A DNA stretch of 34,372 bases, taken from assembly GCA_001803415.1 (NCBI GenBank), contig MHDC01000025.1, positions 1 through 34,372 of the forward strand. The letters are read 5' to 3'. The translations under genes were made by a program, and so were the position numbers. The notes below the pieces were generated by a model. It saw only the letters and a list, made by a program, of their open reading frames with translations, did no database searches and was not told the DNA's origin. The stretch's first letter is position 1. Each line of letters opens with the position of its first letter. Of the stretch, positions 30,986 through 34,372 are shown in pieces. The DNA is from Microgenomates group bacterium RBG_16_45_19 (GTDB lineage: Bacteria; Patescibacteriota; Microgenomatia; UBA1400; RBG-16-45-19).

Positions 30986-32077
30986 TTAGACTTCGGCTTC
31001 AGTGGATTCACCGATGTCGGTGGGCAAGCTTTGGGCAGCCCGGACTTTGGCCCAAATTTTACTTTCGATATCTTTGGCCAATTTAGGATTATCCGCCAAG
31101 GCCATTTTGGCCGCTTCCCGGCCTTGACCTAAAACCTGATCCTCATATTTATAGAAAGATCCGGATTTATTGACAATATTAAATTCCACGCCAACATCGA
31201 TTAAACCACCAGTTTGGGAAACACCACCCAGGTTCATAATGTCGAATTCGGCTTTACGAAAAGGCGGGGCAATTTTGTTTTTGACGACTTTAGCCCGATG
31301 TTGGGAGCCAATAATTTTATCGCCTACCTGGATGTTACCGATCTTACGCATATCAATCCGCACCGAGGCATAAAATTTTAAAGCTTGGCCACCCGTGGTA
31401 GTTTCGGGATTGCCGAACATGATGCCGATTCTCATGCGGAGCTGGTTGGTGAAAATCAAGGCAGTTTTGCTTTTGCTGATAGCTCCGGATAATTTACGCA
31501 TAGCCTGACTCATTAACCGGGCTTGTAAGCCCATGACGGCGTCGCCCATTTCACCTTCGATTTCGGCTTTAGGAACGAGGGCGGCCACGGAATCAATGAC
31601 CAAGACATCGACGCCGCCGGAACGGATGAGCGTCTCGGCAATTTCCAAAGCTTGTTCACCGGTGTCGGGTTGGGAAATGAGGAGATCGTCTAAATTGACA
31701 CCGATGGATTGAGCCCGACCGGGATCCAAAGCGTGTTCAGCATCGATAAAGGCAGCCGTACCACCCCGTTTCTGAACTTCAGCGATGACATGCAGGCAAA
31801 CGGTGGTTTTGCCGGAAGCTTCGGGGCCATAAATCTCGGAAATCCGCCCTTTGGGAATGCCGCCGGCACCCAAGGCAATATCCAAGGCAATCGAGCCAGT
31901 CGGAATCACTTCGATGGTTAAATCTTTTTTAATCGAGTCACCCAAACGCATGATCGAACCGACGCCGAATTGTTTGGTAATCTGCTCCATAGCAATGTTG
32001 ACAGCCTGAAGTTTTTCTGAAGTCTGACTGACGGCGGCGGACGGTGAGGCATTGGTTGATTTAGGCGGTCTACCCAT
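30986..32077 (-). CDS. recA: Recombinase RecA; start moved to MGRPPKST after AAGGAG
   Basis: [85 protein letters not shown]. Confidence 0.97.
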
Positions 32078-32172
32078 AGTCTCCTTATTTTGCTTGCTAC
32101 TATAAGATTTATGGTCATTCAAACACAGGCCTATGACTTTTGCAAGCTGCGTTTAGCAGAATCGCTTCCGTG

Positions 32173-32178
32173 TATAAT
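32173..32178 (+). promoter_or_regulatory. -10 box (TATAAT) upstream of the partial tRNA / GIY-YIG / tRNA-Pro unit
   Basis: TATAAT 12 nt upstream of the partial tRNA-Pro copy; no strong -35 seen. Confidence 0.5.
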
Positions 32179-32190
32179 TAAGAACGAAGG

Positions 32191-32246
32191 CGGGGAGTAG
32201 TATACCCGCCGGGCAGAGCCCTCTGGGCGGCGCCGGCAGTACACGC
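32191..32246 (+). pseudogene. Partial tRNA-Pro 5' half with a 28-nt GC-rich hairpin inserted in the D-loop region
   Basis: CGGGGAGTAGTATACC and CCGGCAGTACACGC together match the first 28 nt of the intact tRNA at 32516-32543, with a 28-nt hairpin-forming insertion between them. Confidence 0.85.
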
Positions 32247-32258
32247 AGTACTGAACAT

Positions 32259-32525
32259 ATGAGTTACGTCTACCTGTTAAAAAGTTTGAAAGATAATAAT
32301 TACTATATCGGATCTACAAAAGATGTTAAAAAAAGATTTTATCAACATCAAAAAGGCTTAGTTAAAGCTACCTGCTATCGTCGCCCTTTGAAATTGCTCG
32401 GTTACCAAAAATGTCAAACGATTCTTGAAGCCTCAAGTCTTGAAAAGAAATACAAAAAATCACATGACGCCTTACAAAGAGCAATAAAGAAAATGAAATT
32501 TAAAATTATTAACATCGGGGAGTAG
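32259..32525 (+). CDS. GIY-YIG domain nuclease (88 aa)
   Basis: YVYLLKSLKDNNYYIGSTKDVKKRFYQHQKG...LEASSLEKKYKKS; the last codons GGG GAG TAG lie inside the tRNA 5' end. Confidence 0.9.
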   Translation: MSYVYLLKSLKDNNYYIGSTKDVKKRFYQHQKGLVKATCYRRPLKLLGYQKCQTILEASSLEKKYKKSHDALQRAIKKMKFKIINIGE

Positions 32526-32586
32526 TATACCGGCAGTACACGCGCATGGGGTGCGCGTAGAGGGAGTTCAATTCTCCCCTCCCCGA
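32516..32586 (+). tRNA. tRNA-Pro (anticodon GGG), no encoded CCA
   Basis: Acceptor CGGGGAG/CTCCCCG; D-arm GTAT-ACCGGCA-GTAC; anticodon arm CGCGC-ATGGGGT-GCGCG; T-arm GGGAG-TTCAATT-CTCCC; discriminator A. Confidence 0.93.
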
Positions 32587-33659
32587 CTAGGTAACTGATG
32601 ACGACTTTTTAGCATTTCATGAAATGGTGGTTTTAACCGATATGACGCCACTTTATCGTTATCGACTGTCAGGTTCAAGAATAAATATCGACAAATTTGG
32701 TCTTTGACTTCTGGAATATCAGATTTAGCCAGTAAGACAGCATTTTTAGACAGGTTCAAGAATTGTTCTAGGGTTAATTTATCTTTTTCTGGGTCGGTCA
32801 ATTGGCTTTCAATCTTGGCTATATCAGCTTCAATCTCAACCCGCTTCGACTCAAGAGTTCTTAATTTATTTTCCCCCGACTTGTAAATTGTGCTTCCCTT
32901 ATTATCAACATGCTTGAGTAATGCTAGTGAAATATCATCTATCTCCCTTTTGACTGCCTTCAACGCTCCACGCTTACTGTTAAGCTCCATTTGTACCTTT
33001 TCCCTCTTCTCACCCATAATTCCATTTATCCCTTCGTAATACCGCTTGTAATCGGCTTGGGTGAGGTTCAAACCATCAGCTAAAAAGTCATAGATGAAGT
33101 CAAATATAATTTTGGCTCTAATGGACTTCTTTTGCCTTGAACAAACTTTGTTATCACACCTGTAATATAAAAATTTTCTACCTGTATGGCTGGTAGAAGG
33201 CCCGACACGCATACTGCTTCCGCAAGATGAACATAATACCATTAGCCTTAGCGGGTAAAATGCCAGTTTATGAGGCTTGGAAGGCTTCATACGACGATAC
33301 GAGAGGCTCTGGACAATGTTGTAATCTTCTTCGCTGACTACTGGTTCAAAGTCATAAATATCTCGTAAATCAACCTGCTGTTTTGCTTGCACTAACAATC
33401 CGTAATAAAATGAGTCTTTGAAAATATCGCTGAGCTCTTGGATATCTATCCGTAGCTTCTCACCAGTCGACTTAACTATTCGATGAAAATTATGTTCATT
33501 AAGATAATCTGCAATCTTTTGTAGCGATGTTCCAATCTTCCTCATCTGCCACGCTTCCTTCATCAGCTCAAAGTTGTCACCATCTGGACTATATAAACCA
33601 CCTTCGTTGAGGTAACCATACTTCGGCGTTGGGGTCTTGCGGAAGTGAACCCCATTTAC
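32568..33659 (-). pseudogene. Large serine recombinase, C-terminal part; N-terminal catalytic domain separated by an IS element
   Basis: Frame is open back through ...VNGVHFRKTPTPKYGYLNEGGLYSPDGDNFELMKEAWQMRKIGTSLQKIADYL (recombinase domain), zinc ribbon LVLCSSCGSSMRV...YYRCDNKVC, and coiled coil; no resolvase catalytic N-terminus before the IS junction. Confidence 0.8.
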
Positions 33660-34372
33660 TGTACCAGTACGACTTCAGTTAGTTCTTAGATTTAACGGCG
33701 TTTTCCGTACTTTTTAATGTAATCCAAAGGCGACACATTACCGATTGACGAGTGTCGTCTTTTTTCATTGTAATACTTAATCCGTGCTCGTACCACCAAG
33801 GTGACTTCTTCTCTGGTTTGGCATTCCCAAAAGAGGTCCCGGTTTTCCTTTTTAAATCTCCCGTTAAATGATTCCATGGCCGGGTTATCTTTAGCCCCTC
33901 TTAAAGCGTAGGAGAGTTTCATATTGTGACAGATCAACACCTGGCAGAGCCACTCATAACTAATGTAGGCCGAACCCTGATCATGATGGACGATGGCTCC
34001 CTCCAGCTGGTAACCCAAGTGCCTAACCCCTTCACCGGCATTGGTGAGGGCTTTGGCAGCCGCCTCACTAGTCGCGGTACTGCCTAAGGCAAACCCCGGA
34101 CAATATTTACTTTGATGGTCAATTAAAGGCATAAGTTGGACCTTCTTTCTGCCTTGGTCATAGAGGATTTCGGTAAAGTCGGTGGTGAACATGGTAAAAA
34201 TACCAATAATTACCTTACCCTCGGTCTCTTTATCGAGGAGTGGTCTATACAGATTCATTTTGTTCCCAAGCTTTAAAAGGATTGGCCGGATTGGGCCTTC
34301 CGGTGGCCGGTTAACCGCTCTTAGGGTCACCAATTCCTGATCCTTCATTAGTTTCTGGACCAATTTATGGTT
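33660..34372 (-). mobile_element. IS3-family (IS150-like) insertion sequence, truncated by the window edge
   Basis: Transposase plus putative terminal sequence TGTACCAGTACGACTTCAG starting at ~33660, where the recombinase frame begins. Confidence 0.7.
33692..34372 (-). CDS. IS3-family OrfB transposase (rve/DDE), 5' end outside window
   Basis: DDE-type pattern: FTTDFTEI, IVHHDQGSAYIS, NPAMESFNGRFKKE, YYNEKRRHSSIGNVSPLDYIK. Confidence 0.92.
   Translation of the reverse strand, partial: NHKLVQKLMKDQELVTLRAVNRPPEGPIRPILLKLGNKMNLYRPLLDKETEGKVIIGIFTMFTTDFTEILYDQGRKKVQLMPLIDHQSKYCPGFALGSTATSEAAAKALTNAGEGVRHLGYQLEGAIVHHDQGSAYISYEWLCQVLICHNMKLSYALRGAKDNPAMESFNGRFKKENRDLFWECQTREEVTLVVRARIKYYNEKRRHSSIGNVSPLDYIKKYGKRR

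Follow-up and report, generated by a model that had tools for sequence, protein, structure and literature searches.

The question raised by this locus is how a nuclease gene that comes with neither an integrase nor an intron can occupy the 5′ half of a tRNA gene while the tRNA itself is kept. The locus belongs to a stretch of 34,372 nucleotides (the window) from contig MHDC01000025.1 of Microgenomates group bacterium RBG_16_45_19. Its conserved left neighbour, which sets the synteny for empty sites, is recA (30986–32122, minus strand; identified from the ORF list and its translation). On the plus strand, a TATAAT box read directly at 32173–32178 is the native −10 box of the original tRNA-Pro gene. 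Behind it lies a non-functional copy of the tRNA (32191–32246, plus strand) which holds all 28 nt of the 5′ half of tRNA-Pro(GGG). This left copy runs from nt 1 to nt 16 (CGGGGAGTAGTATACC, 32191–32206, 16/16 identical to the intact tRNA), is broken in its D-loop by a 26-nt palindrome of what we call family A (CGCCGGGCAGAGCCCTCTGGGCGGCG, 32207–32232, given no strand), and resumes with nt 15–28 (CCGGCAGTACACGC, 32233–32246, 14/14 identical). The palindrome has CC on both sides; the dinucleotide thus appears twice in the left copy and once in the intact tRNA, a 2-bp duplication. The original prediction described a 28-nt hairpin at this point. The interruption is real, but its nature is different: it is a mobile 26-nt palindrome with the 2-bp CC duplication, and it recurs elsewhere.

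The only ORF between the left copy and the intact tRNA is an 88-aa GIY-YIG nuclease gene (32259–32525, plus strand; Pfam PF01541, E = 1.6e-15). Its last codons and stop, GGG GAG TAG, fall inside the restored tRNA, with the stop codon being T8-A9-G10 of that tRNA. The restored tRNA-Pro(GGG), found intact by ARAGORN at 32516–32587 on the plus strand, lies 325 bp downstream of the left copy. A TTAAAAT motif within the 3′ end of the ORF (32500–32506, plus strand) was read directly and may be its −10 box, as suggested by the decayed relatives discussed below (L156–L159), where just the 3′ end of the ORF is retained upstream of the tRNA. The restored tRNA is the sole match of its kind found in the source genome, which is about 87% complete, and the restored copy is therefore probably the functional one. 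It is identical at 72/72 nt to the element-free tRNA-Pro(GGG) of another genome, G050.

The 88-aa ORF stands alone inside the unit, where no tyrosine or serine integrase was found, and no Rfam intron was detected in the whole window at the gathering threshold. A reading as a group I intron of the I-TevI type was rejected on the lack of an Rfam match and on the intact tRNA that follows uninterrupted. The main outline of the original prediction is upheld by these results: the first 28 nt of the tRNA occur twice, 325 bp apart, with the TATAAT box before the left copy, a complete right copy, and a single 88-aa GIY-YIG gene between them. So is its general idea of a minimal GIY-YIG mobile element in a tRNA gene, without integrase or intron, in which the tRNA is rebuilt downstream and the left half keeps the promoter.

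Two other genes, both on the minus strand, were noted to the right of the unit. A serine recombinase gene (32568–33563), truncated so that only its Recombinase and zinc-ribbon domains remain, reaches into the 3′ end of tRNA-Pro, and an IS3-like transposase with rve domains follows it at 33692–34363, at the contig end. The tRNA-Pro gene seems to have been invaded from both sides. Next to recA in another genome (L232 in G034), a second tRNA-Pro-like acceptor stem, CGGGGTATA...TACCCCGA, holds a dispersed hairpin repeat just upstream of an intact tRNA-Pro(GGG), and the GIY-YIG gene is absent there.

The origin of the duplicated half can be read from its similarity to other tRNAs. Twenty loci have 15 nt or more of left copy ahead of the palindrome. 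In these, the left copy matches the tRNA downstream of it at 98.6% and element-bearing tRNAs of that isotype from elsewhere at 79%; in all 19 testable cases the closest match was its own tRNA. The half was therefore duplicated locally. The similarity mostly begins at nt 1 of the tRNA and hardly extends any further upstream, with about 12 nt more in a few loci (L018, L089). Where the segment after the palindrome is long enough, it usually also comes from the host's own tRNA (14/14 in the window). With the parts on both sides of the palindrome derived from the host, the left copy is the host tRNA split by the palindrome, with the ORF placed after it. The original prediction had the element carry in a replacement 5′ half, and this part has to be given up. 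The restored gene part is not foreign, as it would be in the fungal mitochondrial mORFs discussed below.

The unit in the window is not a one-off: it belongs to a family of very small mobile elements that extends through the phylum Patescibacteria (CPR). A search with the window protein found GIY-YIG relatives in 224 of the 384 genomes of the window's class, most of them MAGs; the loci surveyed were picked by similarity to this one protein, best matches first, which leaves distant families under-sampled. Among 116 distinct loci of this one class, 60 have a same-strand tRNA directly downstream and 19 more have one directly upstream, while a tRNA on the opposite strand is nearby in one locus only, in addition to its other tRNA. 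About one third of the relatives have no detected adjacent tRNA. The isotypes involved are Pro, Gln, Asn, Asp, His, Arg, Cys, Tyr, Trp, Val, Gly, Ala, Ser, Lys, Glu, Ile and Phe. A copy of the tRNA's own 5′ end, defined as at least 11 matches to its first 12 nt at 200–470 bp upstream, precedes 44 of the 79 tRNAs that have a GIY-YIG gene immediately 5′ of them, but none of 87 control tRNAs (Fisher p = 9.5e-19). Direct repeats around the ORF with a score of at least 16 occur in 35/116 loci, compared to 7/1500 cross-pairs. The same architecture in dozens of loci is far beyond chance, and the association of the homologs with tRNA 5′ duplications, on which the original prediction had staked itself, is strong. 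Elsewhere in the phylum, 13 of the 25 loci from other classes lie immediately 5′ of a tRNA, and a left copy and hairpin can be seen in many of them. The relatives in a named collection were three Patescibacteria MAG loci and one contig of a Bacteroidales MAG. A phage or plasmid origin was considered and dropped: phages and plasmids gave only four weak matches, and viral contigs none.

Insertion and decay can be followed at several sites. The tRNA-Pro site is empty in a member of the same order (L228 in G225), where recA, the TATAAT box just upstream of the tRNA, and tRNA-Pro(GGG) itself are arranged as in the window but with no insert; the tRNA-Pro(GGG) of G050 has no insert either. In a second genus, a tRNA-Gln(CTG) locus that follows the same gene in each case has no element in three species (L183, L184 and L197), one element in G061 (L064), and in G340 (L177) another GIY-YIG gene, whose palindrome differs too. 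Of a GIY-YIG ORF, four species in a third genus (L156–L159) retain only the last 50–100 nt, before tRNA-Cys. Taken together, the empty and occupied tRNA-Pro and tRNA-Gln loci and the tRNA-Cys remnants demonstrate both insertion and decay, and occupied and empty alleles of one conserved site are what is looked for in a homing element. It had been anticipated that relatives without the ORF might still carry both tRNA copies, which would have spoken against an insertion; those compared have a single copy.

Other forms of the unit add to this picture. In the mirrored units (L061, L096 and L037), a complete tRNA lies upstream and an orphan 3′ part lies downstream of the GIY-YIG ORF. The order of complete tRNA, GIY-YIG ORF, and then an orphan 3′ half or a palindrome-bearing copy of the same tRNA was noted in these three and in L123 and L091; the full order in L123 is tRNA, ORF, palindrome-bearing tRNA, and ORF remnant. 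A tandem array in G335 has about 12 units with a 357-bp period, each consisting of a tRNA-Ser 5′ half, two hairpins and a GIY-YIG ORF. The array (L046, G335:C2:1-6500, minus strand) is made of identical units, adjoins tRNA-Val and continues up to the contig end; in G376, of the same genus, a GIY-YIG gene is also found at a contig end.

The original prediction also spoke of a nuclease-only element, and this needs to be revised, for the palindrome is a clade-specific second component that co-evolves with the nuclease. Of the left copies that could be fitted to their tRNAs, almost all hold a GC-rich palindrome, located in the D-arm or the anticodon arm or replacing part of it. A hairpin statistic based on perfect stems was too strict at its threshold and was replaced by these fits to the tRNA. 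The notion that palindromes are confined to tRNA loops was dropped, since many are in the 5′ strand of the D-stem. The palindrome families follow the nuclease tree and not the host. For palindromes delimited by hand from the tRNA fits before the test was run, the Spearman correlation of palindrome similarity with protein distance is −0.35 (46 loci), −0.33 for pairs from different host families, and −0.29 when the tRNA isotypes differ as well; in each of the three cases none of 2000 permutations was as strong, with the element phylogeny modelled by the protein tree alone. Two genomes, G361 and G202, each hold two elements with unrelated palindromes. In the nuclease clade of the window, palindrome A is present in seven of the eight loci, from six host families, with L043 as the exception; it is interrupted by a second hairpin in L017 and has 3 mismatches in G187.

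These palindromes are also dispersed on their own. An exact second copy of the 26-nt palindrome in the source genome (C34:7748-7774) lies inside a gene assigned by eye to the LCP family. Exactly or with at most 3 mismatches, palindrome A was found in 14 of the 384 genomes of the class (the window genome and 13 others), and a control search with the reversed pattern returned 0 matches. There are 19 copies in G318 alone. Solo copies are found in and between genes, usually with CC flanking both sides, and the family C palindrome reaches up to 14 copies per genome. As in REP/RAYT systems, dispersed short palindromes are here coupled to an enzyme clade, and the palindrome is probably a DNA feature that is recognised or moved by the nuclease, judging from sequence comparison. 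The idea that the palindromes are general inserters into hairpin loops was rejected: solo family C copies are not preferentially within inverted repeats, and a long flanking stem was seen around 2 related copies only. At nine loci in G318 (L248, L254, L256, L258, L260 and L262–L265), palindrome A lies inside a larger dispersed repeat with an ATTCTGG...CCAGAAT-like stem.

The protein has little beyond the catalytic domain and no separate DNA-binding domain. Its residues Y5, Y16, G18, R26, H30 and E62 are invariant in 46/46 loci, as would be required of an active homing endonuclease, and we take this set to be the catalytic set of I-TevI. The catalytic domain of I-TevI is also the best solved structural relative. 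The source genome has a second GIY-YIG gene (L001, on C27), a 90-aa open frame about 124 bp downstream of tRNA-Trp, with similar hairpins (CGGGTAC...GTACCCG) on both sides.

How the unit came to its present form is a matter of interpretation. We think it probable that a mobile element of about 325 bp, consisting of a GIY-YIG gene of about 85 aa and its cognate GC-rich palindrome, entered tRNA-Pro(GGG), and that the tRNA was rebuilt through local duplication of its 5′ part. The nuclease would make a break within the 5′ half of the tRNA gene; its repair would put in the nuclease gene and duplicate the tRNA from nt 1, the mature 5′ end, onward. The outcome would be a promoter-proximal broken copy with the palindrome in the D-arm or anticodon arm, and a complete tRNA rebuilt at the 3′ end of the ORF. 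Because the complete tRNA is rebuilt, the host would survive and tolerate the element, even though the tRNA gene it occupies is essential and present in a single copy. The anatomy of the unit, its recurrence and mobility, the local origin of the duplication and the coupling of palindrome and protein are seen in the sequences; that this protein cuts the tRNA gene and recognises the palindrome, and the repair pathway, are what we infer from the arrangement. One point speaks against this mechanism: the intact tRNA, still present downstream after insertion, would seem to retain a nuclease site. It is also possible, as a more tentative proposal, that the GIY-YIG protein mobilises its palindrome in a REP/RAYT-like transposition. 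Autonomous copies, made of palindrome and gene, and solo palindromes would then be moved by the same enzyme, the latter as non-autonomous copies that in family A come with the 2-bp CC duplication, and tRNA genes would be a safe landing site for the autonomous copies, the tRNA 5′ part being duplicated on entry.

The strongest rival is a segmental amplification like that of phage SegB, in which tRNA and ORF are duplicated in tandem and one tRNA copy is later broken by a palindrome and eroded. The tandem amplification of tRNA and segB in phages is a precedent (PMC13096335), and the tRNA-Ser array of G335, the order in L123 and the local origin of the duplicate all agree with it; a tandem duplication followed by palindrome insertion would give much of this picture. 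Slow erosion, however, does not fit well with left 5′ parts that have hardly any mutations in a copy whose remainder is rearranged, and amplification by itself does not explain why the palindrome tracks the nuclease clade. We consider it unlikely as the whole explanation, and it may be a part of the element's life cycle. Classic homing, in which the 5′ half of a donor tRNA is swapped in by homologous recombination after a double-strand break, would work in the way of the fungal mitochondrial mORFs (PMC3630166), with the flanking tRNA sequences presumably serving as homology arms. The incoming half and the native left copy would then be expected to differ, as they do in the fungal cases, and the high identity within each locus compared to that between hosts of the same element clade leaves this reading strongly disfavoured and very improbable.

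Still less probable, and likewise strongly disfavoured, is that the palindromes have nothing to do with the element and are host repeats or terminators which landed by chance in a redundant tRNA copy. Such palindromes are indeed dispersed in these genomes, inside ORFs as well as in intergenic DNA, but in G187, G361 and G101 the sole family C match is the one in the element; moreover, the palindrome family goes with the nuclease clade whichever the host family, and the elements of a single host can differ in their palindromes. Finally, the GIY-YIG domain is common to the UPF0213 proteins (1zg2, 1ywl), and the gene could be taken for an ordinary host gene of the UPF0213/YhbQ type that is next to a tRNA incidentally. 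Its patchy presence, the many tRNA isotypes, the same-strand bias and the structural match to I-TevI do not fit such a gene, and the comparisons with empty sites refute it.

Several known systems share some features with the local-duplication element that we favour. Elements with tyrosine integrases and an attB site in a tRNA gene restore their target gene after insertion; the present units differ in having no integrase, in duplicating the 5′ and not the 3′ part in the main class, and in their size of 0.3 kb compared to many kb. REP/RAYT systems pair palindromes with the gene of a small RAYT enzyme, a Y1/HUH protein, and have both solo and enzyme-linked copies. The REPs are short dispersed palindromes (PMC3733652), and the likeness lies in such palindromes co-evolving with a small enzyme gene, although here the enzyme is a GIY-YIG and not a Y1/HUH protein and the target is tRNA genes. 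The closest precedents are SegB and the fungal mORFs, and a palindrome partnership is absent in both as far as the accessible part of the SegB source goes. SegB, one of the related free-standing GIY-YIG homing endonucleases of phages T4 and T6, is described there as cutting within tRNA genes of many isotypes and as being amplified in tandem with them (PMC13096335), and the tie of a GIY-YIG nuclease to tRNA genes of many isotypes is the shared trait. SegB is a phage gene, and that part of its description mentions neither a duplicated tRNA 5′ half nor a cognate palindrome, whereas the Patescibacteria family is chromosomal, has only a catalytic domain of about 85 aa, and sits between a broken and an intact copy of one and the same host tRNA. 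In the mORFs (Allomyces atp6; Glomus atp6, atp9, cox2 and nad3), a nuclease ORF is inserted in an essential gene whose function is preserved by a duplicated part, a foreign C-terminal part brought by the element (PMC3630166). In the present case it is the 5′ part of an RNA gene that is duplicated, locally, in bacteria, and with a partner palindrome. The insertions in CPR rRNA genes include group I and II introns with LAGLIDADG or, rarely, GIY-YIG proteins, mostly at the top or base of stem-loops, and these GIY-YIG proteins were judged to be outside a homing context (PMC11270868). They are likewise nuclease-coding and in structural RNA genes of the same phylum; however, they lie inside the rRNA gene and many are introns, whereas the tRNA unit is intron-free with an intact tRNA beside it. 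A literature search that covered few subscription journals and preprints found no work pairing GIY-YIG, tRNA genes and Patescibacteria, and novelty is provisional given this partial coverage.

If the favoured reading is true, a whole phylum of streamlined bacteria carries autonomous elements of about 300 bp, each made of one domain of about 85 residues and one palindrome, which live in essential tRNA genes and leave the host alive. It would mean that the 5′ half of a tRNA gene can be invaded without an intron or an integrase, and it would join homing nucleases with mobile REP-like palindromes, which are usually separate. It would also offer a concrete and testable source for the dispersed palindromes of CPR genomes, and a chromosomal counterpart, with clear before and after alleles, to the SegB-like associations of tRNA and nuclease genes.

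The loci without a tRNA neighbour have features of their own. Terminal inverted repeats with a score of 12 surround the ORF in 11 of 46 such loci, compared to 12 of 1500 cross-pairs, and from their sequences these loci look like a related insertion-sequence form. Seven GIY-YIG ORFs away from tRNAs (L210, L044, L024, L020, L021, L205 and L207), in units of about 280–340 bp, are candidate GIY-YIG insertion sequences, with terminal inverted repeats of the CCCCCACACC[AT]ATTG or ACCCTGTTAAAT types. Double hairpins were noted in the left copies of tRNA-Ser and tRNA-Cys in four loci (L213, L220, L203 and L224), placed in the T-loop or the anticodon loop; they resemble the double-hairpin elements of fungal mitochondria.
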